NCBI RefSeq assembly: GCF_010731575.1
Contig: NZ_AP022617.1
Span: forward strand, 372,001 to 436,000
Length of the DNA stretch: 64,000 nucleotides
Direction: 5' to 3'
DNA from: Mycolicibacterium monacense
GTDB lineage: Bacteria; Actinomycetota; Actinomycetes; Mycobacteriales; Mycobacteriaceae
The notes under the pieces were generated by a model. The model worked only from the letters and a program-made list of their open reading frames with translations, had not been told where the DNA came from and ran no database searches. The position numbers and the translations under genes are program-made. Position 1 is the first letter of the stretch. Each line of letters opens with the position of its first letter. This document shows positions 8,998 through 35,746 of the stretch, piece after piece.

Positions 8998-9023
8998 TGA
9001 ACATATATGAGGATATCTGTACT
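8998..9023. promoter_or_regulatory. 26-bp TetR-type operator, site 1 (Rieske operon promoter)
   Basis: TGAACA (8998-9003), 14 bases, TGTACT (9018-9023). The left ten bases, TGAACATATA, are identical to those of the perfect palindrome at 35721-35746 and the spacing is the same. It lies in an AT-rich stretch 216 bases upstream of the first Rieske gene, where the promoter is expected. The match is seen; regulator identity is inferred. Confidence 0.5.
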
Positions 9024-9063
9024 ATCTCTACTAGACGTCTCACCAGCTGACCCGACGTGATTC

Positions 9064-9083
9064 GTACGTTGGATCCAACGAAC
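9064..9083. promoter_or_regulatory. Palindrome in the Rieske operon leader
   Basis: CGTTGGATCCAACG (9067-9080) is a perfect 14-base palindrome, extended to 20 bases with one mismatched pair. It lies between site 1 and the alpha-subunit start. IclR regulators often bind such dyads, and an IclR gene closes this operon at 13822. That assignment is inferred. Confidence 0.45.
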
Positions 9084-9238
9084 GGAGAGTTACGACCACT
9101 CATGGGTATCGAGTCCGTCGTTGTGTGGTTCGACGTAGCTGCCGATCACAGGATCCGACTCAACTTGCGGTTCATCTCTGCCTGCAGAGAACGGTCCTGC
9201 TACCAGGGGGCGTCACTGCGGCGCAGAAGAAAGGTGTC

Positions 9239-10642
9239 ATGACCGACCAGTCCAGGGTACTCGACGACGTTCGCCGAGGCATGATCCCGGCCCATATCTA
9301 CAACGACCGGGAGATCTTTGAGCTGGAGAAGCGGCACATCTTCGCCAAGGCGTGGGTCTTCGTTGGCCACGAATCGGAGATCGCACAGCCAGGAGACTAT
9401 GTCGTGCGGCGGATTCTCGAGGACTCTTTCATCATCACCCGTGACGAAAATGGCACCGTCTGCGCGCATTTCAACATGTGTCTGCACCGCGGTATGCAGG
9501 TGTGCCGGGCGGAGATGGGCAACGCCTCACACTTCCGTTGTCCGTATCACGGCTGGTCCTACCGCAACGACGGCAGGATTGTGGGGTTGCCGTTCCACCA
9601 GGATGCCTACGGCGGCGAGGAAGGATTTGCCCGCAAGGGACAGCGGTTGTTGCCGGCTCCGAACCTCGCGATCTACAACGGCATGATTTTTCTGAGCCTG
9701 AACGCTCAGGCGCCACCGCTGGAGGATTACCTGGGGGACTTCAAGTTCTACCTCGACTTCTACACGCGGCAGAGTTCGAGTGGCATCGAGTTGCACGGAC
9801 CACAACGGTGGCGGATCAAGGCGAACTGGAAGATCGGCGCCGAGAACTTCGCCGGCGACATGTACCACACGCCCCAAACGCACACTTCGGTGGTCGAGAT
9901 CGGACTCTTCCGGGAGCCCAACGCGCAGAAGCGCAAAGAGGGTGCGCTGTACTGGGCCGGCAACGGCGGCGGAACCACCTACAAACTGCCTGACGGATCG
10001 CTGGAGGAGCGGCTTCGGTACGTCGGCTATCCCGACCAGATGATCGAGCGGATGAAGCGGAGCTGGTCGCCGGAGCAGCTCGCCATTGTCGGCACCGACG
10101 GCTTCATGTTCAGTGCCGCAACGCTGTATCCCAACCTGTCATTCGTGCACAACTGGCCGAAGGTCGCCGACAGCGACGATGTGCTGCCGTTCATCACGCT
10201 CCGGCAATGGCAGCCGATCAGCGAAGATGAAACCGAGGTGCTGTCCTGGTTCGCCGTGGACGCCGACGCCCCGGACGAGTTCAAGGCGCTGTCCTACAAG
10301 GCTTATCTCATGTGCTTCGGTAGTACCGGCATGTTCGAACAGGACGATGTCGAGAACTGGGTGTCGCTGACCAACACGGCGGCCGGCTCGATGGCGCGGC
10401 GATTACTGCTCAACAGCCGGATGGGTCTGCTCGCCGATGACTCGGAGGTAGCGCCTCCACTGCCTGACGACCGATTCAGCGGACCGGGTATCGCCCGTCA
10501 GGGTTACAGCGAGTTCAATCAGCGAGAGTTGCTGCGACGCTGGGCCAATGACCTCGAAGCCGGTTCTGCCGAGACGGTAGGTCCCGGATCATCCGACGGT
10601 GTGACGGTCAACGGCGACCACGGGGCGGTGACGCGCGTATGA
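9239..10642 (+). CDS. Aromatic ring-hydroxylating dioxygenase, alpha subunit
   Basis: 467 residues from the ATG at 9239, which has an AGAAGAAAGG ribosome site; an upstream ATG at 9125 gives an implausible extension. It is the catalytic subunit of a Rieske non-heme iron oxygenase that makes cis-dihydrodiols from an arene. The Rieske 2Fe-2S ligands are Cys81 and His83 (CLHRG) and Cys101 and His104 (CPYHGW). The mononuclear iron site is GDMYHTPQTH, with Asp207, His210 and His215, plus an Asp near 369-370 (QDDVENW). It is followed by a coupled beta subunit, SDR, ferredoxin and reductase, so the system is three-component. The gene order resembles phthalate 3,4-dioxygenase loci of actinobacteria. 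The substrate is inferred, not proved. Confidence 0.93.
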   Translation: MTDQSRVLDDVRRGMIPAHIYNDREIFELEKRHIFAKAWVFVGHESEIAQPGDYVVRRILEDSFIITRDENGTVCAHFNMCLHRGMQVCRAEMGNASHFRCPYHGWSYRNDGRIVGLPFHQDAYGGEEGFARKGQRLLPAPNLAIYNGMIFLSLNAQAPPLEDYLGDFKFYLDFYTRQSSSGIELHGPQRWRIKANWKIGAENFAGDMYHTPQTHTSVVEIGLFREPNAQKRKEGALYWAGNGGGTTYKLPDGSLEERLRYVGYPDQMIERMKRSWSPEQLAIVGTDGFMFSAATLYPNLSFVHNWPKVADSDDVLPFITLRQWQPISEDETEVLSWFAVDADAPDEFKALSYKAYLMCFGSTGMFEQDDVENWVSLTNTAAGSMARRLLLNSRMGLLADDSEVAPPLPDDRFSGPGIARQGYSEFNQRELLRRWANDLEAGSAETVGPGSSDGVTVNGDHGAVTRV

Positions 10643-11226
10643 GCAATGCCGCCGACACCGACTCCAGCCGGTCCCGCCTCGGCGGGTCGGCATCGCGCGT
10701 CACCCGTACCGGCAAGACGCTGCGATTCGACGACAAGCGGCACTTGCTCGCCCACCAGTGGCTGGTCGACGAGACCTATCTGCTGGACGCACAGTCGTAT
10801 TCGGAGTGGCTCGAGAGTCTCTGCGAGGACATCCACTATCTGATGCCGGTCAGGGTCACGACGGCGCTGGCCGCCGGCTACGACACCTCGCCCGGCATGG
10901 CGCATTTCGACGAAGACAAGTACTCGTTGTCTCGCCGGGTGGCCCGCTTCCTCACCGAACACGCCTGGACCGAGGATCCGCCGTCCCGGTTGCGCCACCA
11001 CCTGTCGAACGTGCGCACCTTCGCCACCGACGACCCCGACCACCTGATCGTCGAGTCCGCCACCCTGCTGTTCCGGAGCAGAGGCGACGTTCGGGAGGGT
11101 GCCTTTCTGTCGGCGGGCCGGGAGGACCTGTTGCGGCTCGAGGGCGAGCAGTGGCGGCTGGCCCGTCGCGTCATCTCCGTCGATGAGTCGGTCATCCGCA
11201 TGCAGAATCTGGCGGTGTTTCTGTGA
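10639..11226 (+). CDS. Aromatic ring-hydroxylating dioxygenase, beta subunit
   Basis: 195 residues with an NTF2-like fold. It shows the usual beta-subunit pattern: an N-terminal helix (LLAHQWLVDETYLLDAQSYS), EWLESLCEDIHYLMPVR, a region RLRHHLSNVR, and the end SVIRMQNLAVFL. It has a structural role in the alpha3beta3 oxygenase. It overlaps the alpha-subunit stop by four bases (ATGA), so it is translationally coupled. The first 20 residues are a Ser/Arg-rich extension not needed for the fold. Confidence 0.92.
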   Translation: MSNAADTDSSRSRLGGSASRVTRTGKTLRFDDKRHLLAHQWLVDETYLLDAQSYSEWLESLCEDIHYLMPVRVTTALAAGYDTSPGMAHFDEDKYSLSRRVARFLTEHAWTEDPPSRLRHHLSNVRTFATDDPDHLIVESATLLFRSRGDVREGAFLSAGREDLLRLEGEQWRLARRVISVDESVIRMQNLAVFL

Positions 11227-11534
11227 CGCCTCCCAAGGAACAGCAGACGGGCCCGGCGAGCGTAGTGCGCAGTGAGCTGCTCAGACATGTTGTCGGCGAA
11301 CCGATCACGATCGGCAACGAGTTCAGTGAGGTGCGCCTCACCCGCGTCGACACCCGCAACGGCTCGCGGCTGCTGATCGAATCTCAGAAGTCGGGGCAGT
11401 GGGTGTCGCTCTGCCCTCTTGAAGTCGAGGCCCTGACGTGGCAGTCGACCGCGACATTCTCGGCGATGATCGGACACCCCTTCGGATCCCTGGTCGACGA
11501 GCGGTCCGGCGAGTCCGCTCCGGAGTCGCGGTGA
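11223..11534 (+). CDS. Small conserved-looking protein of unknown function in the dioxygenase operon
   Basis: 103 residues, starting at a GTG that overlaps the beta-subunit stop (GTGA) and ending in a GTGA overlap with the next SDR gene. It has no signal peptide, membrane helix or metal-binding Cys cluster. The central part has alternating hydrophobic strands (FSEVRLTRVDTRNGSRLLIE, SGQWVSLCPLEVEALTW), suggesting a small beta-rich fold, then FSAMIGHPFGSL. I have the impression that similar small proteins beside actinobacterial Rieske genes are auto-labelled 'dihydrodiol dehydrogenase'. It has no Rossmann motif, so that label would be wrong. The tight coupling suggests an accessory role for the dioxygenase or dehydrogenase. 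Confidence 0.75.
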   Translation: MTPPKEQQTGPASVVRSELLRHVVGEPITIGNEFSEVRLTRVDTRNGSRLLIESQKSGQWVSLCPLEVEALTWQSTATFSAMIGHPFGSLVDERSGESAPESR

Positions 11535-12337
11535 CCGGCTGGCTCACCGGTCGGCGGGCCCTTGTCGTGGGCGCCGGTTCGGGGATCGGCAGGGCGGTGG
11601 TCGACGCCTTCCTCGATGAGGGGGCGCGCGTGGCCGTTCTGGACCGCGATGAGCAGAAGTGCTCGGCGCTGAGCGCTGACCATCCCGATGTGCCCGTGGT
11701 GTGTGGCGACGCGAGCTTCCGCGCCGCCAACGACGAGGCCGTCGCCGCCGCGGTTGAGGCGTTCGGTGGTCTCGACGTGCTCGTCAACTGCGTCGGGGTG
11801 TTCGACTTCTACCGCAGCATCGAAGAAATCGACGCGGACGTGCTCGACGAGGCATTCGACGAGATTTTCCGTGTCAACGTCAGAAGCTATCTGCATTCGG
11901 TCAAGGCGGCACTTCCCGCGCTGCGGGAGGCCGCCCGGCCCGTCATCGTGCTGACAGAGTCCACCTCCGGGTACTACGCGGGGCGAGGTGGAGTCCTCTA
12001 CGTCGCTTCCAAATTCGCTGTCCGCGGACTGGTCACCGCGCTGTCGCACGACCTGGCGCCGCAGATCAGGGTCAATGGTGTCGCACCCGGCGCCACACTC
12101 GGCACCGACCTTCGGGGTCTGGCCGGGCTTGGCATGGCGGACCGCAGCATCTCGAACGTGCCCGGTCGTGCCGAAGAGATGTCGGCGCGTGTTCCCCTGC
12201 AGGTCGCGTTGTCCGCGCAGGATCACGCGTGGAGTTACGTGTTCCTGGCATCGCATCGCGCCCGCGGCATCACCGGCGACGTCATCCACCCCGACGGAGG
12301 CATGAGTGTCGCCGCGGCACCGAAAAAGCGCAGTTGA
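11531..12337 (+). CDS. SDR dehydrogenase, cis-dihydrodiol dehydrogenase type
   Basis: 268 residues from the GTG at 11531, which overlaps the previous stop. It is a classical short-chain dehydrogenase: NAD-binding GAGSGIGRAVV (14-24), VNCVG near residue 85, a Ser near 144-146 (ESTSG) and the catalytic YVASK with Tyr157 and Lys161. In this operon it most likely oxidises the cis-dihydrodiol made by the dioxygenase to a catechol, the role of BphB/PhtB. The motif GAGSGIG replaces the usual TGxxxGIG threonine, as in dihydrodiol dehydrogenases. A longer frame from 11438 exists but overlaps the upstream gene and lacks family features. Confidence 0.88.
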   Translation: MTGWLTGRRALVVGAGSGIGRAVVDAFLDEGARVAVLDRDEQKCSALSADHPDVPVVCGDASFRAANDEAVAAAVEAFGGLDVLVNCVGVFDFYRSIEEIDADVLDEAFDEIFRVNVRSYLHSVKAALPALREAARPVIVLTESTSGYYAGRGGVLYVASKFAVRGLVTALSHDLAPQIRVNGVAPGATLGTDLRGLAGLGMADRSISNVPGRAEEMSARVPLQVALSAQDHAWSYVFLASHRARGITGDVIHPDGGMSVAAAPKKRS

Positions 12338-12372
12338 GCACGCGCGCCCACGATCGGAAGAGAGGGAACATC

Positions 12373-12570
12373 ATGCCCAGACTCCACGCTGACTACCCCT
12401 CGTGCCAGGGCTACGGCAACTGCGTGACCGGCGCTGCCGACACCTTCGATGTCGACGACGACGGCGTGGTGGTGCTGTTGCGCGACACCTTCGCAGAGCC
12501 CGAGCGCTCACGAATCGAGGACGCCGTGCGCAGTTGCCCTGTGAACGCCTTGAGCATCGAGACCGACTGA
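12373..12570 (+). CDS. 3Fe-4S-type ferredoxin of the dioxygenase system
   Basis: 65 residues. The ATG at 12373 has GAGAGGGAA just upstream, and the longer frame from 12229 runs inside the SDR gene. The pattern C-Q-G-Y-G-N-C followed by RSCPVNAL near the C-terminus gives the three-cysteine arrangement of 3Fe-4S ferredoxins, with Gly/Tyr in place of the second cysteine of a 4Fe-4S motif. It should carry electrons from the following reductase to the Rieske oxygenase. A 3Fe-4S ferredoxin in this position is known from actinobacterial phthalate and PAH dioxygenases, rather than the Rieske ferredoxins of pseudomonads. Confidence 0.9.
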   Translation: MPRLHADYPSCQGYGNCVTGAADTFDVDDDGVVVLLRDTFAEPERSRIEDAVRSCPVNALSIETD

Positions 12571-13814: not shown

Positions 13815-13821
13815 TCGCCTG

Positions 13822-14607
13822 ATGACGATGGAAGCAGAACCGATTGTCACCCGGGCATACGGGCCGACACCCCAGTACCCGGTGGAATCGGTCGACAACG
13901 CCTTGCAGATCGTCATGCTCCTCGCAACGCGGAATGAGTTGCGGCTCACCGATGTGAGTGCTCACTTCGGCCTCGCCAGTTCGACGGCGCACCGGCTTCT
14001 GGCCATGCTGTCGTACCGCGGACTGATCCGCCAGGATCCGAAAACCAAGGCCTACCGCGCAGGACCGGGCCTGGATCTGCTCGCCTTCAGCGTGCTGCGC
14101 CGGCTCGATGTCGGCGACCGGGCCCGGCCGGTCCTGGAGAAGCTGAACGCCACGCTGCGGGAGACCGTGCATCTGGGACGTCTGGAAGGCGCCGAGGTCG
14201 ACTTCGTCGCGTCCATCGAGAGCCCACAGGCGCTGCGGGTATCCAATCGTCTGGGCGTGGCGATGCCCGCGCACTGCACGTCGACCGGCAAGGCACTGCT
14301 GTCTGCGCTCGGGCCCGAGGAGCTCGACCGGCTCTATCCCCAGCCGGATCTCGTCCAGATGACGCGGAACTCCATCGCGTCGAGGGCGGCGCTCCACGCC
14401 GCGCTGGCCGAGGTGCGCAGGCGCGGGTACGCCATCAGCAATGAAGAGGGCGAGGTGGGCGTGATCTCCATCGCGGTACCGCTGCGCAGCGGAGCGTACG
14501 CCCTGAATGCCTCGGTGCCGGTGAGCCGAATGACCAGGAGCTTGCGCAGAACGGTGCTCAGCGAGCTGAATGCGGCCGCCGACGAGATCGAGGCAATGCT
14601 GCCATGA
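13822..14607 (+). CDS. IclR family transcriptional regulator
   Basis: 261 residues. It has an N-terminal winged HTH (ALQIVMLLATRNELRLTDVS, GLASSTAHRLLAMLSYRGLI) and a C-terminal effector domain with the family's conserved MPAHCTSTGKALLSALGPEE and GYAISNEEGEVGVISIAVPL. IclR proteins often control aromatic operons by binding palindromes and sensing pathway acids. It is the seventh gene of the dioxygenase operon, seven bases after the reductase, and its end overlaps the decarboxylase-like gene. The palindrome at 9064-9083 is a candidate operator. Position and type recall PhtR. Confidence 0.9.
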   Translation: MTMEAEPIVTRAYGPTPQYPVESVDNALQIVMLLATRNELRLTDVSAHFGLASSTAHRLLAMLSYRGLIRQDPKTKAYRAGPGLDLLAFSVLRRLDVGDRARPVLEKLNATLRETVHLGRLEGAEVDFVASIESPQALRVSNRLGVAMPAHCTSTGKALLSALGPEELDRLYPQPDLVQMTRNSIASRAALHAALAEVRRRGYAISNEEGEVGVISIAVPLRSGAYALNASVPVSRMTRSLRRTVLSELNAAADEIEAMLP

Positions 14608-26103: not shown

Positions 26104-26129
26104 AAGACACTTAAGAATGATTCTGTCTA
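26104..26129. promoter_or_regulatory. 26-bp palindrome between cupin and TetR genes
   Basis: AAGACA (26104-26109), 14 bases, TGTCTA (26124-26129), with perfectly paired AGACA/TGTCT. It is almost exactly midway between the two divergent start codons at 25928 and 26303. The length and spacing match the TGAACA-N14-TGTTCA family, but with a different core, so it may be the operator of the TetR encoded at 26303. Confidence 0.45.
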
Positions 26130-26302: not shown

Positions 26303-26881
26303 ATGGCGGCGAACCACGACATGCTTGCGCGCATATTCGACGCGACCACTACGGCGCTGGCACGCAGCGGTGCGAGAAGGCTGTCGATGACCGACGTCAG
26401 CGCTGAGGCGGGGATCGCCCGCGGAACGCTGTATCGCTATTTCAGTGGGAAGCAAGACCTCCCGAATGCGGTCGGAGTACGAGTCGTGAAGCTCTTTGAA
26501 GACGGAATCGTCAACGCCGTAGAAGAGCGGCCCGAACTCGACGTTCGTGTCCGGGTGGTCGTGGAGGCGATGGCCGACGTCGGCCGCGACCATCCGGAAA
26601 TCATGCAGGTGATCGCCCTTGAACCGGGCTTCGGCGTGGACTTCTTGCAGCAGATCTTTCCGGAGTTCGTCTGCCTGCTGGACGAGCTGCTGGCGCCGGC
26701 TCTCAACATGACCCGTGCCGTTCGGTCCATGGGTGTGACCAGTGGTCAGCTCAGTGAACTCATCCTCCGCATCGTGATGTCGGCGTACGTGTTGCCGACC
26801 CCTGATCTGGCCGACGTGCCCCGGGCGATCCTGGCGTTGCCGTGTCTGGCCCGGTGGACTCCCGACCTGTACCTGGTCTGA
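26303..26881 (+). CDS. TetR family transcriptional regulator (divergent from cupin gene)
   Basis: 192 residues from the ATG at 26303, preceded by an AGAGGAGGA ribosome site; the ATG at 26204 has no family sequence. The HTH is TDVSAEAGIARGTLYRYFSG. The ligand domain carries HPEIMQVIALEPGFGVDFLQ, which has a visible counterpart in the TetR at 35037 (PATVQIGQLEPGFVLDYIKL) and a weaker one in the TetR at 45506. The three look like paralogues. It probably represses the divergent cupin/hydratase-aldolase operon through the palindrome at 26104. Confidence 0.92.
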   Translation: MAANHDMLARIFDATTTALARSGARRLSMTDVSAEAGIARGTLYRYFSGKQDLPNAVGVRVVKLFEDGIVNAVEERPELDVRVRVVVEAMADVGRDHPEIMQVIALEPGFGVDFLQQIFPEFVCLLDELLAPALNMTRAVRSMGVTSGQLSELILRIVMSAYVLPTPDLADVPRAILALPCLARWTPDLYLV

Positions 26882-26908: not shown

Positions 26909-27133
26909 TCATTTGCCGGCTTCGGCGCGACGCACGGTGATGGCTTCGGCAGGACAGGCCTGCGCTCCTCGGCGGGCCTGCGCCTCGAGTTCAAGCGGCA
27001 CGCTCTCAGGTGCCACGGCGTATCCAGCGTCGTCGATCGTGTAGACGTCGGGACCTTCAGCGGCGCACAGGGTGTATCCGCAGCACTTCGACCGGTCGAC
27101 TGTGATCACAAGTGGTAGCTGGCTGTCTGCCAT
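26909..27133 (-). CDS. 3Fe-4S-type ferredoxin
   Basis: 74 residues. The motif KCCGYTLCAAEGPDVYTID with a C-terminal AQACPAEAI gives the three-cysteine ferredoxin signature common beside P450 and Rieske genes in actinobacteria. It is convergent with the TetR gene and divergent from the flavin reductase gene. It is a plausible electron donor for the Rieske oxygenase at 31548, which has no ferredoxin or reductase in its own operon. That link is inferred from proximity and from the palindrome at 27192 shared with the neighbouring operons. Confidence 0.9.
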   Translation of the reverse strand: MADSQLPLVITVDRSKCCGYTLCAAEGPDVYTIDDAGYAVAPESVPLELEAQARRGAQACPAEAITVRRAEAGK

Positions 27134-27191: not shown

Positions 27192-27217
27192 TGAACAGTC
27201 TATACAGATTGTGTCCT
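27192..27217. promoter_or_regulatory. 26-bp TetR-type operator, site 2 (ferredoxin / flavin reductase)
   Basis: TGAACA (27192-27197), 14 bases, TGTCCT (27212-27217), in the 141-base divergent region between the ferredoxin and flavin reductase genes. The left half-site and spacing match sites 1, 3 and 4. The right half-site is degenerate (TGTCCT for TGTTCA). Confidence 0.45.
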
Positions 27218-27274: not shown

Positions 27275-27835
27275 TTGGCTGACCCGAAACAACGTGTCAC
27301 AGAACTAGATCCGATATCAACGGACCGACGGGTCCTACGTACGGCCTTTGGGTCCTTTCCCAGCGGCGTGACTGCCGTGTGCGGTGTGGGCGCAGACGGC
27401 GATCCAGTCGGGATGGCGGCGAGCTCGTTCGTTTCGCTGTCGCTGGATCCGCCTCTGGTGGCGGTCTGCATACAGAAAACATCCACCTCCTGGCCCCGGC
27501 TGCGACGGCTGCGTCGACTCGGATTGAGCGTGCTGGCGCAGGACCAGGAGGACGCGTGCGTGCGGCTGTCGGGCAAGGGCGATCGCTTCAGCGACATCGA
27601 CTGGGTGCCTACGGCCGACGGCGCCGTATTCGTGTCAGGTGCTTCGGTGTGGCTGGAGTGCTCCCTGTTCAATGAGGTCCCGGGAGGCGATCACACAATC
27701 GCCATGTTGGAGATTCATCGGCTGCACACCGAGCCGGGCGTTGCTCCGCTGGTGTTCCACGGCAGTGCATTTCGCCGTCTGGAAGTGGCTGTGGACACCG
27801 AGGTCGCATCGGGCTCCCCGGGCAGTCCGATGTGA
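27275..27835 (+). CDS. Flavin reductase (HsaB/HpaC-like, FMN-binding split barrel)
   Basis: 186 residues from the TTG at 27275, chosen because GGAGGAG lies seven bases upstream; the open frame begins at 27188 inside the operator region. The core is typical: VLRTAFGSFPSGVTAVCGVG, GMAASSFVSLSLDPPLVAVC, and the C-terminal IAMLEIHRLHTEPG with PLVFHGSAFR. Such enzymes supply reduced FMN/FAD to two-component monooxygenases. The acyl-CoA-dehydrogenase-like monooxygenase that starts 155 bases downstream is the likely partner, as HsaB serves HsaA. Confidence 0.9.
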   Translation: MADPKQRVTELDPISTDRRVLRTAFGSFPSGVTAVCGVGADGDPVGMAASSFVSLSLDPPLVAVCIQKTSTSWPRLRRLRRLGLSVLAQDQEDACVRLSGKGDRFSDIDWVPTADGAVFVSGASVWLECSLFNEVPGGDHTIAMLEIHRLHTEPGVAPLVFHGSAFRRLEVAVDTEVASGSPGSPM

Positions 27836-27894
27836 GGCGCGCCGCGGATCGGTGCGAAGGAACTTCGCCTGATGCCTTGACGCCGCGGTGATAC

Positions 27895-27920
27895 TGAACA
27901 CATAATACTACTACTGTTCA
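27895..27920. promoter_or_regulatory. 26-bp TetR-type operator, site 3 (monooxygenase operon)
   Basis: TGAACA (27895-27900), 14 bases, TGTTCA (27915-27920). Both outer hexamers are identical to those of the perfect palindrome at 35721. It lies 70 bases upstream of the monooxygenase start, where the promoter should be, so binding would block transcription. Confidence 0.6.
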
Positions 27921-27989: not shown

Positions 27990-29171
27990 ATGACAGCCGT
28001 CGAGGCCGACACCACCACCGTCTTGGACGCCGTCCGGGCGATCGTTCCCGAGATCGCCGAACGAGCGAATGAGATCGAGGCGGCGAAGCTTATCCCGGCC
28101 GATTTGATCCAGCGGCTCACGGACGCAGGGGCATTCAGGATGTTCGTGCCTCGCCAGTACGGCGGTGAAGAGATGAGCATGCTCGATGCCATGGCTGTCA
28201 TCGAGGAGGTGGCGAAGGCCGACGCGTCAGCGGGTTGGACTGTGATGATCGGTGCTGACTTCGCGCCGGTGTTCGGCCGTTTCCCCCAGCACGTCCTCGA
28301 CGGGGAGATCTATCCCGAAGGACCCGACACCATGGCCCGCGGAGCGTTCGCCCCCAAAGGGGTGGCGATCCGCACCGACGGTGGCTATGTCGTCAACGGG
28401 CAGTGGCCTCTCGCCAGCGGTAGCTATGAGCATCAGTGGATGATGGGCAGCTGCATCGTGCTGCAGAAAGGTGCGCCCGTCATGACCGACGCGGGGGTGC
28501 CCCAGATGGTGCTGGCGATGGTGCCGGCGCAGCAGGCTGACTTCGTTCAGACGTGGGATTCCGTTGGCTTGCGCGGGACGAACAGCAACGACTTCGTGCT
28601 CAGGGATGTCTTCGTTCCCGATCAGCACATTGGTAACTTCTTTGGACCAGCCACCGTGGACACCACGCTGTTTCGGCTGCCTGTCCGCTTGGCGCTGGGC
28701 CCGACCCATGTCGCGGTGGTCATGGGCATCGCCGAGGGCGCCCTGGGCGATCTTCGAGCGCTGGCCAAGACGAAACGACCCGCGTTCAACCCCACCATGC
28801 GACTGGCTGAGGACCCCGTATTCCAATACCGGCTGGGGCAACTCGACATCCGGTTGGCCTCGGTCCGTGCGTTGGCCGAGAAGGAGGTCCGTCTGATGTG
28901 GGACGCGGCGTCGGCAGGTGAACCCATGTCGCCGCTGCAGGCGACACGCCAGCGGGCGATGGTGGCGCGGGCCCACACGGAGTGTGTCGAGATCGTCAAC
29001 GAGGCGTTCGGACTGGCAGGCAGCAACGCCATGTACAACACGTCCACTCTGCAGCGACGCCTTCGCGATGTGCGGACGGCGGCGCAGCACGCCGCCGCCA
29101 GTGCGGAGATCTACACGATCGTCGGTGCGCTGCTCGTCGGAGAGGACGTCCCGCCGGCCGCCTTGGCCTAG
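27990..29171 (+). CDS. Acyl-CoA-dehydrogenase-fold flavin monooxygenase (HsaA-like)
   Basis: 393 residues from the ATG at 27990, with GGAGGACA upstream. The fold is that of acyl-CoA dehydrogenases: ADLIQRLTDAGAFRMFVPRQ, YGGEEMSMLDAMAVIEEVAK, DASAGWTVMIG, WPLASGSYEHQWMMGSC, DSVGLRGTNSNDFVLRDVFV and the C-terminal FGLAGSNAMYNTSTLQRRLR. These patterns belong to the group C/D flavin monooxygenases such as HsaA and HpaB-type hydroxylases. They use reduced flavin from a separate reductase, here probably the gene at 27275. It would hydroxylate a phenol to a catechol. A true acyl-CoA dehydrogenase is less likely given the SGSYEH motif and the reductase. Confidence 0.83.
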   Translation: MTAVEADTTTVLDAVRAIVPEIAERANEIEAAKLIPADLIQRLTDAGAFRMFVPRQYGGEEMSMLDAMAVIEEVAKADASAGWTVMIGADFAPVFGRFPQHVLDGEIYPEGPDTMARGAFAPKGVAIRTDGGYVVNGQWPLASGSYEHQWMMGSCIVLQKGAPVMTDAGVPQMVLAMVPAQQADFVQTWDSVGLRGTNSNDFVLRDVFVPDQHIGNFFGPATVDTTLFRLPVRLALGPTHVAVVMGIAEGALGDLRALAKTKRPAFNPTMRLAEDPVFQYRLGQLDIRLASVRALAEKEVRLMWDAASAGEPMSPLQATRQRAMVARAHTECVEIVNEAFGLAGSNAMYNTSTLQRRLRDVRTAAQHAAASAEIYTIVGALLVGEDVPPAALA

Positions 29172-29191
29172 CGGCCGGGACAACCGACAGG

Positions 29192-29650
29192 ATGACAACC
29201 GACGCCATGACAGCCACGATGACGCCACAGGCCGTGACCACCCACTGGGAGCTCAGCCGCCTCAACAACGCTTTCGCCTACTTCATGGACAACGGTGAAT
29301 TCGATTCCATGATCGGGCTGTTCACCCCGGACGCGGTGTTCGACCGGGCCGGAATCGTCCATCACGGCCACGAGGAGATGCGTCAGGGGATGCGCGAGCG
29401 GCCGAAGGTGACCACCCGTCACCTGTTGACGAACTTCCACCTGACCAGGGCCGACGACGACTCCGCAGAAGCGGTGGTGTGCGCCATGGTCTATCACGGT
29501 CCGCTCGCGGAAGACGGTGGGCCGGTGGTCTACGCCACTGACAACGGACGGGTCATCGAGTTTCACGACACCTACACCAAAACCGCAGAGGGCTGGCGCA
29601 TCTCGTCACGGATCGCACGCCCGATCTTCACCCCCAAGGTATGGCCGTGA
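29192..29650 (+). CDS. SnoaL/NTF2-like protein
   Basis: About 152 residues; starts at 29192, 29207 and 29219 are all possible. It has an NTF2-like fold: LSRLNNAFAYFMDNGEFDSM, GLFTPDAVFDRAG, HHGHEEMRQGMRERP, TRHLLTNFHLTRADDDSAEA, FHDTYTKTAEGWRISSRIA. This group includes small dehydratases and isomerases and beta subunits of oxygenases, but the length and lack of the beta-subunit C-terminus argue for a stand-alone enzyme or binding protein. It lies 20 bases after the monooxygenase gene in one operon. No function is assigned. Confidence 0.8.
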   Translation: MTTDAMTATMTPQAVTTHWELSRLNNAFAYFMDNGEFDSMIGLFTPDAVFDRAGIVHHGHEEMRQGMRERPKVTTRHLLTNFHLTRADDDSAEAVVCAMVYHGPLAEDGGPVVYATDNGRVIEFHDTYTKTAEGWRISSRIARPIFTPKVWP

Positions 29651-29677
29651 CCGGGCCGGACAACGAAAGCGAGTCAC

Positions 29678-30085
29678 ATGGCTGAGAACCACCATGACGT
29701 TCTGGGCACCGTGGAGAAGTTCGTCGCCGCGCTGACGGCGGGCGACGCAGGCGCTCTCGACGCCCTCTTCACGCACGACGCAGTGATCTGGCACAACTAC
29801 GACCAGGTCGGGCAGCCGGCCAGAGAGGCGCTGGCGGCACTCGCCGGACTGGCGGCGCTTGCGCCCCGCTACGAGATTGCAGGGCGTGACCTGGTGGACA
29901 GTGCCTGCGTTCAACGCCACGTCGTGCACATCACTCTGCCCGGAGGACAGCCGGCATCCATCCCGGCTATTCAGCGGATCTCCGTGGTAAACGGCCAGAT
30001 TCGACGGATCGACGAATACATGGACTCAGCCCAGATGGCGACCGCAATGCAAGCGCTCCAAACCAGTCCGCAGACCCCGGTGTGA
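29678..30085 (+). CDS. SnoaL-like / limonene-epoxide-hydrolase-fold protein
   Basis: 135 residues with the alpha+beta barrel pattern VEKFVAALTAGDAGALDALF, THDAVIWHNYDQVGQPAREA, LAALAPRYEIAGRDLVDSAC, ISVVNGQIRRIDEYMDS. It is the second consecutive NTF2-fold gene, 27 bases after the first, and the two are only distantly alike. Members with WHNYD are seen near aromatic and steroid clusters, often without known function. A small hydratase or isomerase role is possible. Confidence 0.8.
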   Translation: MAENHHDVLGTVEKFVAALTAGDAGALDALFTHDAVIWHNYDQVGQPAREALAALAGLAALAPRYEIAGRDLVDSACVQRHVVHITLPGGQPASIPAIQRISVVNGQIRRIDEYMDSAQMATAMQALQTSPQTPV

Positions 30086-30122
30086 CCGAAGAGATATTCC
30101 CATCGATGAGAAGGAACCCCTG

Positions 30123-30701
30123 ATGCCCGCAATCACAGACAAGTTCACCGGTGAACCTGTCCTGAAGCTTCAGCGCCTCGGTCACGGCACCCTCGAGACC
30201 GTGGATCTGGCCAGGGCGCGCCGCTTCTACGAGGAAGTGCTCGGGCTGGAGGTGATTCAGCCGAGCAGCAGGTCGATGATGATCCGGCTCGGGACCAACC
30301 ACGCCTACGCCGTGGTGGAGACCGGGAAGGAGAGCACGATGACCATGCTGGCGCACAACGGGCTTGACGTCGGCACCGTGGAAGAAGTCCACGCCGCGCA
30401 CAAGAAGTTGGTCGAGATCAAAGACCAGTGGGGAATCAAGCAGATCACCGAGCCCCGTCACATGCATGGGGACACGTCGTTCTACTTCACCGATCCCGAC
30501 GGCAACTGGTGGGAGATCGTGGCGGTTCGCGAGAACGGCTACGCTGCGGACTTCGCCGATCGTGACCGCGATCTCACCGGTCTGCATGAGTTCGACGGCG
30601 AGAGCGGAAACGTGAACTTCAGCCACACCCACGACCCAAACTTCCGCGCGCGGGTCCGTGAGGTCGTCGAAGCCAGAGCCGGATCGGAGAGCACCGCGTA
30701 A
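30123..30701 (+). CDS. VOC family (glyoxalase/extradiol-like) protein
   Basis: 192 residues. RLGHGTLETVDLARARRFYE and VLGLEVIQPSS mark the start of a VOC module, with His residues in GHGT and PRHMHGDTSFYFTDPDGNWW and an acidic residue in WWEIVAVRENG. These could give the metal site of a single-module extradiol dioxygenase or of a glyoxalase-like lyase. In the same operon there is a Rieske oxygenase and FAH-family hydrolase, so ring cleavage or product isomerisation is plausible. The ATG at 30123 follows a run AGAAGGAA. Confidence 0.8.
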   Translation: MPAITDKFTGEPVLKLQRLGHGTLETVDLARARRFYEEVLGLEVIQPSSRSMMIRLGTNHAYAVVETGKESTMTMLAHNGLDVGTVEEVHAAHKKLVEIKDQWGIKQITEPRHMHGDTSFYFTDPDGNWWEIVAVRENGYAADFADRDRDLTGLHEFDGESGNVNFSHTHDPNFRARVREVVEARAGSESTA

Positions 30702-31522
30702 TGAGTCGGTTGGGCGGTAAGGTCGCCGTCGTCACAGGAGCCGGCAAGGGCATCGGCCGGGGCATCGCTCGCCGGTTCGCCCGCGAGGGCGCGAAAGTCA
30801 TTGCCGCTGAGCTAGATCGGGATGCGGGCAAGCAGGTGGTGGAGGACATCGGTGAGCTCGGCGGCGAAGGGCTGTTCGTGCAGACCGATGTGTCCCGGAA
30901 GACCGATATCGAGGGCGCTATCACCGCCGCGCAGGAGTCCTTCGGCGGACTCGACATCCTGGTCAACAACGCCATCGCGCTGACGCCGGACGTCCCGTTG
31001 GAGTACAAGACGGACGAAATGCTCGAGCAGACGATGAAAGTCGGATTGTGGAGTGTCTGGTGGGGCATGCAGACCGCGTTCCCGCTGATGAAGGCCCGCG
31101 GCGGAGGACGGATCATCAACTTCTATTCGATCGACGCCGACAACGGCAACTGGGTCCACGGTGACTACAACACCGCGAAGGGCGGTGTGCAGGCACTGAC
31201 CCGCACGGCCGGCTTCCAGTGGGCACGCCACAACATCTGTGTCAACGCCATCGCGCCGATCGCCGCCTCAGCCGCTTTCGAACAGATGGTGGCCGACAAC
31301 CCCGCACTCGCGGAGGCGATTCCGATGATGATCCCGATGGGACGGATGGGTGACCCGGAAGACGACATCGCCCCCGTGGTCGCCTTTCTGGCCAGCGAGG
31401 AAGCCCGCTTCATCACCGGGGCCACGATTCCGGTCGACGGTGGCCTGCATGTGCCGAGGTTGAACACCCGGCCGCCGGATCCCTCGGTGTTCGACTCACC
31501 GCCCGCCAGTCCCGGGCAATGA
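30701..31522 (+). CDS. SDR dehydrogenase
   Basis: 273 residues, overlapping the VOC stop by one base (TAATG). It has VTGAGKGIGRGIARRFAREG, the NNA near ILVNNAIALTPDVP, a catalytic Tyr-Lys in VHGDYNTAKGGVQALTR and PVDGGLHVPRL at the end. The Tyr-x-x-x-Lys motif is YNTAK. In an operon with a Rieske oxygenase it may be the dihydrodiol dehydrogenase, or may act on a ring-cleavage product. It ends with an unusual Pro/Ser-rich tail (PPDPSVFDSPPASP). Confidence 0.88.
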   Translation: MSRLGGKVAVVTGAGKGIGRGIARRFAREGAKVIAAELDRDAGKQVVEDIGELGGEGLFVQTDVSRKTDIEGAITAAQESFGGLDILVNNAIALTPDVPLEYKTDEMLEQTMKVGLWSVWWGMQTAFPLMKARGGGRIINFYSIDADNGNWVHGDYNTAKGGVQALTRTAGFQWARHNICVNAIAPIAASAAFEQMVADNPALAEAIPMMIPMGRMGDPEDDIAPVVAFLASEEARFITGATIPVDGGLHVPRLNTRPPDPSVFDSPPASPGQ

Positions 31523-31547
31523 AATCACAGGAAAAGGAGAAGTTGGC

Positions 31548-32954
31548 GTGACCATAGATGAGGTGAAACACGCCCCGACCGGACCGGTCCTTTCGGACGG
31601 GACCCCGTTGTCGGAGCTGATTGACAAGGACTTCAGGGAAGTTTCGCTGCGGGTCCTGGTCGACCCAGAGCTCTACCAGCTGGAGTTGAAACATATTTTC
31701 GCCAAGGCGTGGACCGCGGTGGCGCACGAGGATGAGATCCCCAACGTGGACGACTACGTCCTGCGTTACGTCGGCGAGGACGAGGTCATCATCAGCCGGG
31801 CGGCGGACGGCAACTTCACGGTGGCGCTCAACGTGTGTGCCCACCGTGCAGCCAAGGTGTGCCGGTTCGAGGCCGGAAACGCCAAGACGTTTCAATGTGC
31901 TTACCACGGTTGGGTGTACAAGCCCGACGGCACCTTCGTCGGGGCCCCCATCGCCCGTGAAGACATGCACGGCTTGTTGCGTCCCAAGTCCGAACTGGGT
32001 CTGGCCAAGGGGCGGGTAGAAACCTACTGCGGCATGATCTTTGTGACCTTCGACGATAATGCGCCGACCCTGCGGGAGTACCTCGGCCCGATGACGTACT
32101 ACTGGGATCTGATGTTCAACCGCACCCGCGGTGGTATGACGGTCCTTGGTCATCCCCAGCGGTTCATCATCAAGGCAAACTGGAAGAGTGCCGCTGAGCA
32201 GTTCGCCGGCGATATCTTCCATACCCTGTCGCTGCACCGGTCGATGCAGGAACTGCAGCTGCTGTCGACTGAAGGCGAGACACAGGAGCCGGCGATGGCC
32301 GGCGTGAGCGCCAGCTACAACGGCCATTTCGTGCGCTGCTTCGACTTGACCCAGGAGCACTACGTCAACGCCCTCAAAGGCAAGAACCTCGCTGAGATGA
32401 CGCCAATGGAGCGGCTGCACCTGGTCCCGCCGCCAGGGATGTCACCCGACATGGTCGACGGCCTGGCCGAACGATTCGACGACGGACAGCTCAAGATCCT
32501 TGCGGAGTTCACTCCGCAGGTCGGCCAACTGTGGCCGAACGTAGCCGCTCTCTGCATGCCGTTCCAGTTCCCCGACGGCACGCCGTCGGCCTTCCTCAGC
32601 TGGCGGGTATGGGTGCCGCGCGGTCCCGAGCATTTCGAGCTTTTCCACTGGAGCCTGGTTGAGCGCGACGCGCCGCAGGAACTCCGCGACACCGTGAATC
32701 TGATGACAGCGGCCACATTCGGCATCAGTGGTTTCGTCGAGGCCGACGACACTGATACCTGGCCGATGCAGACCCATGCCGCCCGTGGTGCCCTCGGCAA
32801 GGACCAGAAGCTGCGGTACCAGGCGATCACCGGCGAGCACAAGCCAGATGACTGGCCGGGTCCCGGCGAGATCTATGCCGGGTTCCCGAAGGACGACACG
32901 CAGTGGAACTTCTGGGTCCGCTACACCGAGATGATGGAAGGGAGAGCATGGTGA
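31548..32954 (+). CDS. Aromatic ring-hydroxylating dioxygenase, alpha subunit (second system)
   Basis: 468 residues from the GTG at 31548 with AGGAGAAG upstream. Rieske ligands are Cys97 and His99 (VCAHRAAKVC) and Cys117 and His120 (CAYHGW). The catalytic iron site is GDIFHTLSLH, with Asp222, His225 and His230. It is distinct from the alpha subunit at 9239, although both begin with a similar HIFAKAW segment. The operon contains the beta subunit but no reductase, and the nearest ferredoxin is at 26909, so the electron chain is at least partly encoded elsewhere. The substrate is unknown. Confidence 0.92.
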   Translation: MTIDEVKHAPTGPVLSDGTPLSELIDKDFREVSLRVLVDPELYQLELKHIFAKAWTAVAHEDEIPNVDDYVLRYVGEDEVIISRAADGNFTVALNVCAHRAAKVCRFEAGNAKTFQCAYHGWVYKPDGTFVGAPIAREDMHGLLRPKSELGLAKGRVETYCGMIFVTFDDNAPTLREYLGPMTYYWDLMFNRTRGGMTVLGHPQRFIIKANWKSAAEQFAGDIFHTLSLHRSMQELQLLSTEGETQEPAMAGVSASYNGHFVRCFDLTQEHYVNALKGKNLAEMTPMERLHLVPPPGMSPDMVDGLAERFDDGQLKILAEFTPQVGQLWPNVAALCMPFQFPDGTPSAFLSWRVWVPRGPEHFELFHWSLVERDAPQELRDTVNLMTAATFGISGFVEADDTDTWPMQTHAARGALGKDQKLRYQAITGEHKPDDWPGPGEIYAGFPKDDTQWNFWVRYTEMMEGRAW

Positions 32955-33547
32955 CCGCTGAAGCGACCCGAGAAGAGGTTGTTCCCCCCGCCCATGCCGG
33001 CCTGGGCACCGTCGATTACCCGCTGCCGCAAGGCAAGCGGTTGCCGGCAACCGACCCGCGCCATGCCCAGATCGTGGAATGGCTCGAAGACGAGTCGTCG
33101 CTGCTGGACGACGACAATCTGACTGGCTGGCTGGCCCTGCTGGCGCCCGACATCATCTACCGGGCGCCGGTACGCACCACCCGCGATCATCGATCGAAGG
33201 GGGTGTTCGAGGCGGAGATGTACCACTTCAACGAGAACATCATGACCCTGATGTTGAAGCTCATGCGGCTGACCCAGACCGACAGTGCCTGGTCAGAAAA
33301 CCCGTTGTCGCGCACCCAGCGGATCGTGCACAAGGTGCGAAGCTACGAGACCGACAAAGCCGACGAGTACGAAGTCTTCAGCTCGATCGTCCTGATCCGC
33401 TCCCGCTATGACGAACCGCAGCTGGAGTTCCTCCCGGCTCGACGGGTGGACAGAATCCGGGTAGGCGATGAGTGGAAACTCGCCGCGCGGACAATCTATT
33501 TCGATCAGGCCACGCTGGGGGTACAGAACCTGGCGGTCTATCTGTAG
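32948..33547 (+). CDS. Aromatic ring-hydroxylating dioxygenase, beta subunit (second system)
   Basis: 199 residues from the ATG at 32948, seven bases inside the alpha gene, with a GGGAGAG ribosome site; GTG at 32951 is the alternative. The sequence follows the beta-subunit pattern: WLEDESSLLDDDNLTGWLAL, LLAPDIIYRAPVRTTRDH, WSENPLSRTQRIVHKV, and the end FDQATLGVQNLAVYL, which resembles the last residues of the beta subunit at 10639. Confidence 0.92.
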   Translation: MVTAEATREEVVPPAHAGLGTVDYPLPQGKRLPATDPRHAQIVEWLEDESSLLDDDNLTGWLALLAPDIIYRAPVRTTRDHRSKGVFEAEMYHFNENIMTLMLKLMRLTQTDSAWSENPLSRTQRIVHKVRSYETDKADEYEVFSSIVLIRSRYDEPQLEFLPARRVDRIRVGDEWKLAARTIYFDQATLGVQNLAVYL

Positions 33548-33613
33548 CCGGATTTCTGGAGACAACAGCCGAGTGCCGTCCAGCTGGCCGGCAATTACAC
33601 AAGTGAGGTACCA

Positions 33614-34192
33614 ATGTCGTCTGCGACATCGGAAATCCCGGGGTACATGCCAGGAATGTGGCCCGTGGACACGGTCCGGTCGGAGCTGAAGTTCTCGGTC
33701 GGTCACCTGGGTCTGCACACCGTACACGGCACGCTCGCCGTCCGGGGTCGGATCGTGGTGGCCGAGGACCCGCTCGATTCGTCCGTAACCGCCACCATTG
33801 ATCTGGGCTCGGTGAGAACTGGTAGCAAGGGTCGTGACAGCGCGATCCTCTCGGCGCATCTCGTCGACGTCGACAAGCACCCGACGGCGACGTACCGCTC
33901 CACCGGTATTGCCGCGGGCCTTGGTCCGGGTGAGTACCTGATGTCTGGCGAGCTCACTTTCCTGGACGTGACAAGACAAGTGCCACTACGAATTCGACTG
34001 GAGCGCTTCGCTCCCGGTGACGGTCGGCCCAGACCGATCGTCACGGGCCGCGCGGAATTCCTGCGCCGGGACTTCGGCTTCGTCTACCAGGTGCGTCCGA
34101 AGTTCCTCGACCGAGCGATATCACAGACCGTCACCGTCGATATTCGTCTCGAGGGTTCACCTACTGCGTCGAGTGAAGGGACAGGGCACTGA
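33614..34192 (+). CDS. YceI family protein
   Basis: 192 residues with the YceI lipocalin-like barrel: DTVRSELKFSVGHLGLHTVH, GTLAVRGRIVVAEDPLDSSV, DKHPTATYRSTGI, FLDVTRQVPLRIRLERF, RRDFGFVYQVRPKFLDRAIS. There is no signal peptide, so it is probably cytoplasmic. YceI proteins bind polyprenoid or hydrophobic ligands and are often encoded in catabolic clusters of actinobacteria with no proven role. It follows the beta subunit by 66 bases and overlaps the presumed start of the FAH-family gene. Confidence 0.88.
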   Translation: MSSATSEIPGYMPGMWPVDTVRSELKFSVGHLGLHTVHGTLAVRGRIVVAEDPLDSSVTATIDLGSVRTGSKGRDSAILSAHLVDVDKHPTATYRSTGIAAGLGPGEYLMSGELTFLDVTRQVPLRIRLERFAPGDGRPRPIVTGRAEFLRRDFGFVYQVRPKFLDRAISQTVTVDIRLEGSPTASSEGTGH

Positions 34193-35031
34193 AGATCGCC
34201 AGGATTGGCCTGCCGGACAACGACTCCTGGGCGGTGGTGGACGTCGACAACGCGACAGTGCAGCCCTTCTTCGGTGACATCGCTGAGTGGGGTGCGGCAG
34301 CCGCGGAAGGTCGGGCGTCCTTCGATTTCAGTGGACCGCCGTTGAAATTGGACGATGTTCGGCTGCTGCCGCCGATCACGCCGACGTCCACCGTCGTGGG
34401 AGTCGGCATGAATTATTGGTCTCACCTGGAGAAGTTGGGCGTCACCGAGCGGCCGAAAAGCACGCTCGGATTCCTCAAGCCCCGCGCGGCGATCATCGGT
34501 CACGGTGACGTCCTGGCCAATCCCGTCATCACCGAGCAGTTGGACTTCGAGGTCGAACTTGTCGTGGTGCTGGCGCAGTCGGTGAGTCACCCCGGTGGAC
34601 GACCTACCGAAGCCGTCTTGGGCTACACGGTGGGCAACGACGTCAGCGCTCGTGATGCCGCCGTACCGATGAGCGGGGGACTGGATCTGTTCTCCATCAA
34701 AGCTCTCGGGGGAACGACGCCGGTGGGACCGTGGATCACCACCAAGGACGAATTCGGCGGATCCGGTCAGATCGATGTCGGTATCTCACTGCGTGTCAAC
34801 GGTGAGCAGCGCCAGCATGATCGCACCGGGAAGATGATCTTCAGCATCGATGAGTGCTTGGATTATGTCGTCGCCAGGATGCCATTGGCTGCCGGCGACA
34901 TCGTGTTCACCGGCACGACGCACGGTGTCGGGTTCGAAGATGGCCGATATCTGCAGGCGGGCGACGTCGTCGAGGCTGAGGTAGAAGGCGTGGGCGTTCT
35001 TCGCAACATCGTGGGTGAAAAGTCGCTGTGA
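34189..35031 (+). CDS. FAH-family hydrolase, apparently with a CTG start
   Basis: Family members usually begin M-K-I-A-R-I-G. Here that sequence is K-I-A-R-I-G-L-P-D, preceded by CTG at 34189, whose last two bases form part of the YceI stop (CTGA). The first ATG/GTG in frame is GTG at 34234, which would cut 15 conserved residues. With the CTG start the protein has 280 residues. The fold shows GMNYWSHLEKLGVTERPK, FLKPRAAIIGHGD, the metal ligands in EQLDFEVELVVVL and GNDVSARDA, and TGTTHGVGFED. Relatives hydrolyse fumarylacetoacetate-like C-C bonds or act as hydratases or decarboxylases in aromatic degradation. An AAGGGACAGGG stretch precedes the CTG. Confidence 0.82.
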   Translation: MKIARIGLPDNDSWAVVDVDNATVQPFFGDIAEWGAAAAEGRASFDFSGPPLKLDDVRLLPPITPTSTVVGVGMNYWSHLEKLGVTERPKSTLGFLKPRAAIIGHGDVLANPVITEQLDFEVELVVVLAQSVSHPGGRPTEAVLGYTVGNDVSARDAAVPMSGGLDLFSIKALGGTTPVGPWITTKDEFGGSGQIDVGISLRVNGEQRQHDRTGKMIFSIDECLDYVVARMPLAAGDIVFTGTTHGVGFEDGRYLQAGDVVEAEVEGVGVLRNIVGEKSL

Positions 35032-35036
35032 CCGCC

Positions 35037-35639
35037 TCAGCTGGCGGCTTTGTTGGCGGTTCTGGCGCGGGCCCTTCTGGGTTCGAGCCCGGCTGATGCA
35101 CCGAGGAGGACCAGGACGTCACGGAACTCTCGATAATCGTTCGAGGGCATGAAGTAGTGCGAAACAGCCATGCGCACAATCAGATCTACTACCTCGTCCA
35201 GGGTCACTGATCCACTGAGGACGGCGGTGCTGTCCTTGAGCACGGGCTCGATGGCGTCGTGCAGCACTGTCGACAGTTTGGGGGTCACCAGTTTGATGTA
35301 GTCCAGTACGAATCCGGGTTCGAGTTGACCGATCTGTACGGTCGCCGGATTCTCCAGCCAAAATCGCAGCATGACGTCGACAACGATTTGCAGCCGGTCA
35401 GCCGGTCGGGGATTGTCTTCGATGGTCTGCTGAAGTACTGACTGCAGCTTCTCGACGAAATGATCGCCCAGCGAGCGCATCAGTTCGTCCTTGTTCTTGA
35501 AATACCGGTACAGCGTGCCGACCGACAACCCGGCTTCGTCGGCGATATCGCTCATTGCCAGCTTCCTCGGTCCCTGCCGCGCGAGCGCGTGGAGGGCGCC
35601 GTCGAAGATGCGCGCCTGTGTAGTCGCCCTAGTTGCCAC
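35037..35639 (-). CDS. TetR family transcriptional regulator (next to mce operon 1)
   Basis: 200 residues from the GTG at 35639, with AAAGG upstream; the open frame extends to 35834 through the operator, without family sequence. The HTH is SDIADEAGLSVGTLYRYFKN. The ligand-binding domain has PATVQIGQLEPGFVLDYIKL, comparable to the TetR at 26303. It converges on the FAH-family gene. A perfect 26-base palindrome lies 82 bases upstream of its start, so autoregulation is likely. The same palindrome type occurs in front of other catabolic operons in the window, making this protein the best candidate for a local master repressor. Confidence 0.92.
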   Translation of the reverse strand: MATRATTQARIFDGALHALARQGPRKLAMSDIADEAGLSVGTLYRYFKNKDELMRSLGDHFVEKLQSVLQQTIEDNPRPADRLQIVVDVMLRFWLENPATVQIGQLEPGFVLDYIKLVTPKLSTVLHDAIEPVLKDSTAVLSGSVTLDEVVDLIVRMAVSHYFMPSNDYREFRDVLVLLGASAGLEPRRARARTANKAAS

Positions 35640-35720
35640 CGGATCGGCCTTTCGCGTCCAGTTCACCGCGGATGCGGAAAACAGTCCCTGGTACAGGAAT
35701 AATATCGCAATTCGTCCTGA

Positions 35721-35746
35721 TGAACATATACAGCGGTATATGTTCA
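35721..35746. promoter_or_regulatory. Perfect 26-bp palindrome, site 4 (TetR / mce operon 1 region)
   Basis: TGAACATATAC (35721-35731), AGCG, GTATATGTTCA (35736-35746): perfect 11-base arms. It is in the upstream region of the TetR gene at 35037-35639 and on the promoter side of mce operon 1. Sites at 8998, 27192 and 27895 share the outer TGAACA, the 14-base spacing and part of the right arm. The palindrome is seen directly; binding by the TetR is inferred. Confidence 0.7.

Follow-up and report, generated by a model that had tools for sequence, protein, structure and literature searches.

EdcR of Caenibius tardaugens is a TetR-family repressor of a catabolic cluster, that for estrogen degradation; a long palindrome covers the -10 box in the promoters of two operons, and a less well conserved copy is found at the gene of the regulator itself (PMC8700777). 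The locus described here appears similar in these respects. It lies in a 64,000-nucleotide stretch of the Mycolicibacterium monacense genome (contig NZ_AP022617.1, positions 372,001 to 436,000 of the forward strand; hereafter the window), in which five 26-base pair (bp) sites stand in a predicted aromatic-compound degradation cluster that also encodes two TetR-family regulators, named here TetR-A and TetR-B. EdcR differs in its putative operator, TnnCnnTACnAnTnGTAnnGnnA, in its proteobacterial host and in being a single TetR rather than one of a pair.

Long operators are also described in reports on QacR, whose 28 bp palindrome is bound by a tetramer (PMC4482099), and on DarR, whose overlapping palindromes are bound by a dimer of dimers (PMC10636190); in both cases the words and the genes are other than those here. 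KstR, KstR2, BkaR and Mce3R are likewise mycobacterial TetR-family catabolic repressors (PMC4482099 and PMC11667970), and Mce3R also adjoins an mce operon, like TetR-B. Mce3R combines two TetR units in a chain of 406 residues and has asymmetric sites of 25 bp, whereas TetR-B has inverted half-sites, about 200 residues and a single TetR_N match, and was for that reason not taken as a protein of the Mce3R type. TetR-B was also rejected as a KstR equivalog, since its score with NCBIfam NF033703 was 36.2 bits against a cut-off of 280. Compared with the phthalate 3,4-dioxygenase system, the cluster adds an HsaA-like monooxygenase and a second Rieske pair.

An earlier note on this DNA had stated that no regulator is described for the word TGAACA-N14-TGTTCA, and searches aimed at it found none, by title and abstract, in the open-access literature, which lacks most subscription journals. 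TetR repressors over the -10 boxes of catabolic promoters are already known, as the EdcR parallel illustrates, and it is this regulon that is new. We consider it fairly probable that the five sites are operators at which cluster-encoded TetR repressors block transcription, with TetR-B most likely acting at the sites of the TGAACA type.

Five sites share one frame in the promoters of the cluster

The sites are as follows.

Site 1, 8998..9023, + strand: TGAACATATATGAGGATATCTGTACT, TGAACA-N14-TGTACT, operator-like, in the promoter of the Rieske (phthalate 3,4-dioxygenase-like) operon
Site 2, 27192..27217, + strand: TGAACAGTCTATACAGATTGTGTCCT, TGAACA-N14-TGTCCT, between the ferredoxin and flavin reductase genes
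Site 3, 27895..27920, + strand: TGAACACATAATACTACTACTGTTCA, exact TGAACA-N14-TGTTCA, in the promoter of the HsaA-like operon
Site 4, 35721..35746, - strand: TGAACATATACAGCGGTATATGTTCA, a palindrome TGAACATATAC-N4-GTATATGTTCA, upstream of TetR-B
Site 5, 26104..26129, + strand: the variant AAGACA-N14-TGTCTA, upstream of the TetR-A gene (26204)

The first four had been reported in the earlier note as 26-mers with a 14-base spacing, and all were found where it had placed them; site 5 is absent from that note. Their description as palindromes holds fully for site 4, which is self-complementary at 24 of 26 positions with 11-base arms, and does not hold for sites 1, 2 and 3 (16, 12 and 12 positions, respectively). 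The outer hexamers of site 3 are intact, as the note had said, with the exact word starting at 27895. The general form of the five sites is NNRACA-N14-TGTYNN, and the half-site spacing is 14 in all of them; the right half of site 1, TGTACT, matches the core ACA-N14-TGT and departs from the Y of the general form.

Four of the sites recur at the same promoters in related mycobacteria

In related mycobacteria, four of the five sites are found again at corresponding positions, and this conservation is the strongest support for the sites. Upstream regions were scored one genome per row, with the own genome counted as a row, using leave-one-out matrices for sites 1 to 4 and the full matrix for the region upstream of TetR-A; the threshold of each row, p99, was taken from 100 mononucleotide shuffles of that row's own upstream region. 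G317 was left out of the promoter row table and G152 out of the HsaA row. Some genomes carry two handles, between which their loci were interchanged (G018=G157, G038=G153, G062=G151, G315=G154, G317=G155, G329=G149, G347=G150 and G439=G148).

With the matrix made without site 3, the HsaA promoter exceeded p99 in 13 of 14 rows (scores of 18.8 to 27.2), and the HsaA site of G152 scored 30.5 by the full matrix. The Rieske promoter, scored without site 1, exceeded p99 in 8 of 12 rows (19.9 to 24.7). Between the ferredoxin and flavin reductase genes, ACA-N14-TGT was invariant in all seven aligned gaps. Upstream of TetR-B, the matrix without site 4 gave values above p99 in 7 of 14 rows, barely so in G439, and the outer hexamers of site 4 were retained in G298, the closest relative compared. 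Upstream of TetR-A, AAGACA-N14-TGT was present in 8/8 cluster-type genomes in which the region was covered (the own genome included; seven aligned), and 7 of 10 rows exceeded p99 by the full matrix. The local regulon proposed in the earlier note stands for the Rieske operon, the ferredoxin/flavin reductase pair and the HsaA-like operon, and, in the own genome and G298, for the TetR-B gene.

The exact word TGAACA-N14-TGTTCA occurs twice in the window (27895 and 35721) and in none of 100 shuffles, and these two are its only copies in the whole genome (6.04 Mb, one contig). Sites 1 and 2 each depart from it at two positions of the right half and may be chance occurrences as judged by the bare word, because the genome holds 121 places with at most two mismatches. 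The AT-flanked pattern TGAACANWWWNNNNNNWWWNTGTTCA, allowing up to three mismatches, found exactly sites 1 to 4 in the 6.04 Mb, all within 27 kb, and its reversed control found none; its flanking positions had been picked by inspecting these same four sites, so the result shows absence elsewhere and is no independent test of significance.

An independent matrix was built from the HsaA-upstream sites of six relatives, without any letters of the window. It ranked sites 1 to 4 as the top four in the window, with scores, from the highest down, of 29.5, 28.4 (site 4, in the TetR-B promoter), 16.2 and 15.1, the next place scoring 13.8. The controls were 20 simulated windows, with maxima of 6.3 to 16.6, and seven 20-kb stretches of the same genome, with a best score of 15.3. 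Taken by itself, this matrix thus lifts sites 3 and 4 alone well clear of chance; sites 1 and 2, which do not exceed the controls, must rest on the conservation of their own promoters.

The bare exact word was present in 16 of the 148 genomes searched, own included. One locus was taken for each of the other 15 genomes, second places in G001 and G041 being left out; two of these 15 loci (G038 and G062) fall at this cluster, and the remaining 13 are in genomes in which TetR-B was not found, with 12 of the 13 sites lying under a mechanically called open reading frame (ORF). The same was seen for nine of the ten one-mismatch places in the own genome. This ORF test is crude, since it also puts sites 1 and 2 (weak codon signal) and site 4 (extended TetR frame) under ORFs. 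Outside the cluster the bare word lies mostly under ORFs and is not specific to promoters, and bare-word statistics were dropped as evidence. The earlier statement that the sites are absent from gene bodies holds for the AT-flanked motif and fails for the bare word.

Promoter-like boxes at sites 1 and 3

Site 1 overlaps TTGAAC (8997-9002) and TACTAT (9020-9025), which are separated by a spacer of 17, and site 3 contains CATAAT (27901-27906), 18 bases after TTGACG (27877-27882). We take both pairs to be sigma-70-type, that is, -35/-10-like boxes. Among the Rieske promoters, TTGAACA and TGTA-N-TAT were found in 7 of 7 aligned, the second box reading TACTAT or TATTAT. Among the HsaA promoters, TTGAC was invariant in 12 of 12 aligned, and most of these 12 genomes retain the TGTTCA half of site 3, which follows the -10-like box. 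Because sites 1 and 3 overlap these boxes, a protein bound there would be expected to block RNA polymerase.

Two TetR paralogues are candidate binders

The cluster carries the following candidate regulators.

TetR-A, 26303..26881, + strand: TetR-family regulator (PF00440), with 26303 chosen as the start within the listed ORF 26204-26881
TetR-B, 35037..35639, - strand: TetR-family regulator of 200 residues, with PF00440 from residue 11 and a GTG start chosen at 35639; the listed ORF runs to 35834, across site 4

Both proteins match TetR_N (PF00440; cut-off 24 bits), TetR-B with 54.7 bits and TetR-A with 44.5 bits. The predicted structure of TetR-B is an all-helical TetR fold with a mean predicted local confidence (pLDDT) of 84.8, and a fold search with it returned generic TetR-type chains a few Z units apart, with no hint of a ligand or a mode of DNA binding. 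TetR-A is 33% identical to TetR-B and 29% identical to the TetR encoded at 45506; the other paralogues are 30-33% identical to TetR-B.

In G018, G038 and G297, TetR-B is present together with the HsaA operon and its site (24.4-28.1, full matrix), and no TetR-A orthologue was found. Because TetR-B accompanies the HsaA operon and its site even where TetR-A is missing, it is the best single candidate for the protein that binds the TGAACA-type sites, as far as gene content and sequence indicate. In a Frankiales metagenome-assembled genome (MAG), where a single member of this TetR group could be detected, sites lie at the HsaA operon (18.8) and at the gene for that member (21.3).

The half-sites fall into two types. 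Those of the HsaA sites read TGAACA in 16 of 20 cases (10 sites), and those of the TetR-A sites read AAGACA or TAGACA in 13 of 14 (7 distinct sites); only distinct sites were counted, with four TetR-B upstream sites included and with the decayed G315 site and the Frankiales HsaA site left out. This difference suggests two binders, of which TetR-A likely reads the AAGACA/TAGACA variant. Because the TetR gene at 26204 has a conserved variant-type site of its own, both paralogues are probably involved. Of the earlier proposal that a single TetR, most likely the one at 35037, ties the sites together, the protein named remains the best guess, given its co-occurrence with the HsaA site in G018, G038 and G297, and the idea of a single regulator gives way to two probable paralogues.

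Under the repressor reading, TetR-B would bind at the HsaA and Rieske promoters and, in the own genome and G298, at its own promoter, and TetR-A would recognize the AAGACA/TAGACA variant in two promoters, its own and that of the ferredoxin/flavin reductase pair. The bound TetR would block RNA polymerase, and an aromatic substrate or intermediate would free it, so that the operons would be switched on together. Each site would be occupied by a pair of dimers rather than by one dimer; two dimers are likely, by analogy with QacR and DarR, because the outer half-sites are 20 bp apart from centre to centre, which is two helical turns.

A more specific version of this scheme is possible, although we hold it to be the less likely outcome. 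Here the two paralogues would share one degenerate code, in which both would read the core ACA-N14-TGT and the three outermost bases would choose the binder (TGA for TetR-B at the oxygenase operons, AAG or TAG for TetR-A at its own gene), and the electron-transfer promoter would be open to both. Loss of TetR-A would then go with loss of the flavin reductase from the cluster and with TetR-B sites at new first genes. In the cluster stretches of the genomes in which TetR-A was not found (L050, L053, L155, L156 and L205-L208), no HsaB-like gene was found. 

In support of the repressor reading in general, the genomes in which TetR-A was not found have further sites. A stand-alone SnoaL-like gene is preceded by a site scoring 33.5 (L207:1215) or 28.5 (L050:12258); the L207 protein is 60% identical to the window product at 29246-29638, which is encoded inside the HsaA operon. 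Another site, scoring 23.7 (L050), 22.2 (L206) or 17.8 (L207), stands before the acyl-CoA dehydrogenase gene at the head of the Rieske operon. The absence of TetR-A from G407 (L207) rests on a draft assembly.

A record holding a distant relative of TetR-B, L080 (Streptomyces sp. WM6386), has two sites scoring 24, at 768 and 3349, one of which closely precedes an extradiol dioxygenase-like match with 27% identity.

Evidence against the repressor reading and alternative explanations

Several results weigh against the reading of the sites as operators of the two TetR proteins. The rows are not independent events, as several relatives are close to one another. By the matrix without site 2, none of eight rows exceeded p99 at that site, site 2 itself scoring 11.9 against a p99 of 12.5, and site 5 of the own genome (G000) was below its threshold (12.0 against 13.7). 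The own site of TetR-B was below p99 in 7 of 14 rows, six of which have strong HsaA sites (G329, G347, G152, G438, G062 and G297). The Rieske site was not found within 350 bp in G407, G315 and G297, nor at a distant copy in G153. In G315, TetR-B and the operon are present and the HsaA site is decayed (10.8, below p99), and no site scoring at least 15 was found near the HsaA gene of G317 (L072). G156 has a TetR-B (66%), and in the 20.6 kb examined neither the operon nor a site of at least 15 was found. In two drafts, G348 (80% complete) and G407 (92% complete, in 1,020 contigs), the HsaA sites are strong, at 26.7 and 26.2 respectively, and TetR-B was not found in either; their contigs stop inside the operon, before the position of TetR-B.

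The possibility that TetR-A (26204) alone reads all five sites and that TetR-B does something else is supported by the place of its gene, which adjoins sites 2 and 3, and by its upstream site, which is present in all eight cluster-type genomes covered and better kept than that of TetR-B. We nevertheless regard it as unlikely, given that G018, G038 and G297 keep the HsaA site without a TetR-A orthologue and that the half-sites of TetR-A's own sites differ from those of the HsaA sites in the proportions given above. Just as unlikely, or slightly more so, is a binder from another family in the cluster (IclR at 13822, MarR at 16633 or Lrp at 8402), from the third TetR gene (45506) or from a distant locus. 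The IclR gene does lie inside the Rieske operon, and one IclR site class reads TGRAACA-N1-2-TGTTYCA (PMC13273656); yet its spacing of 1-2 differs from the 14 of all five sites, which do not show the IclR group 2 site. Moreover, the HsaA site is kept in genomes in which these genes were not found: no IclR orthologue matched in G018, and G038 and G297 have only genes 44-52% identical elsewhere, and for MarR there was no match in G018 and G038, with the gene present in G297. With their orthologues missing where the HsaA site persists, IclR and MarR were not supported as its binders. This gene-loss argument covers IclR and MarR but not Lrp, whose gene adjoins site 1 and is kept in G018 and G297; the gap upstream of the Lrp gene carries a different word. 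The third TetR gene was rejected because its upstream region exceeded p99 in only one of seven scorable cases (G086, 11.8 against 10.8; the G315 region was too short).

The sites could also be operators of a protein that activates, or that acts both ways, and AtrA is reported as one activator among nine streptomycete TetR genes studied (PMC3511530). Since the -35/-10-like region is where sites 1 and 3 are placed, and a protein bound there would normally block, we think this improbable. The last alternative is that TGAACA is itself a -35-like box and the rest is coincidence. It is consistent with the left half of site 1, which lies within TTGAAC, with its right half, which touches TACTAT, and with the occurrence of the bare word under ORFs. 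However, the TGTTCA half of site 3 follows the -10-like box, at a position that should carry no promoter box, and most of the 12 aligned genomes retain this half; the same 26-bp frame also recurs in promoters whose boxes are differently placed, so that chance is a very improbable explanation. The repressor reading with TetR-B at the TGAACA-type sites is the one we favour.

Site 4 and the mce operon

Site 4 lies about 80 bp from the TetR-B start and 425 bp from yrbE. The earlier note had extended the regulon tentatively to mce operon 1, and this was not upheld: no site was found within 350 bp upstream of yrbE in any of seven genomes, and a role as regulator of the mce operon was not supported on this count. 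When the whole gap between the TetR gene and the mce operon was scored in seven relatives with the same gene order, the best score was 5.5-8.7 in five of them, 31.6 in G298 and 16.9 in G439.

A second palindrome, TGCTGAATGCAGTTCAGCA, is located at 35790-35808, between TetR-B and the mce operon; among the loci of six relatives, only G298 retains a form of it.

Gene content of the cluster

The genes of the predicted cluster are as follows.

9239..10642, + strand: Rieske oxygenase alpha subunit (NCBIfam), first enzyme gene of operon 1
10639-11226, + strand: Rieske beta subunit, operon 1
11223-11534, + strand: small ORF of operon 1, taken as a ferredoxin by position; no Pfam match
about 11534-12337, + strand: cis-diol dehydrogenase, operon 1
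12402-13814, + strand: ferredoxin reductase, operon 1
13822-14607, + strand: IclR regulator, operon 1
26909..27133, - strand: small ferredoxin of 74 residues (PF13459/PF13370), divergent from the flavin reductase
27275..27835, + strand: HsaB-like flavin reductase (PF01613; NCBIfam HsaB-like match below the cut-off), TTG start picked by eye
27990..35031, + strand: HsaA-like operon with monooxygenase, SnoaL-like, VOC, SDR, second Rieske alpha/beta, YceI and FAH family genes

The cluster is predicted to degrade aromatic compounds. The nearest solved protein to the Rieske alpha subunit is the phthalate 3,4-dioxygenase alpha subunit (PDB 9jp5; 449 residues aligned, E 2.9e-238). Extradiol cleavage and lower-pathway genes lie between operon 1 and TetR-A, and the HsaA-like operon, whose status as an operon is inferred from gene order, is followed by TetR-B and then the mce operon. 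The gene order of the HsaA-like operon is the same in relatives, and the order of the cluster is wholly or largely kept in Mycolicibacterium lacusdiani, Mycolicibacterium vulneris, Mycobacterium scrofulaceum, Mycobacterium nebraskense and others. No RNA families were found in the window at Rfam gathering scores.

Between site 1 and the Rieske alpha gene there is a leader mini-ORF of 46 codons (9102-9242, + strand), whose stop overlaps the Rieske start (TCATGA). All seven genomes compared, the own one included, keep it open (45 to 50 codons), with an RRKVS end in six, which hints at translational coupling. In M. europaeum (L050, 8462-9892), the Rieske alpha gene of operon 1 is apparently reduced to a short piece fused in frame to the ferredoxin reductase; the upstream sites remain. 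Where the Lrp-type gene and the indolepyruvate oxidoreductase gene diverge, the gap carries a recurring word of its own, TCAACTAATCT (window 8364 onward, L064:17921 and L063:1415), unlike that of sites 1 to 5.

Significance

The analysis yields a putative operator word, two candidate repressors and a predicted target list for an aromatic-degradation cluster that is common to several non-tuberculous mycobacteria and, in part, to a Frankiales MAG. For the TetR field it adds a worked case and no new principle. If the electron-transfer promoter is open to both TetR proteins, the supply of reductase and ferredoxin would be tied to two inputs, and the two-regulator reading, if true, would make this cluster a compact natural case of duplicated repressors dividing a shared DNA code.

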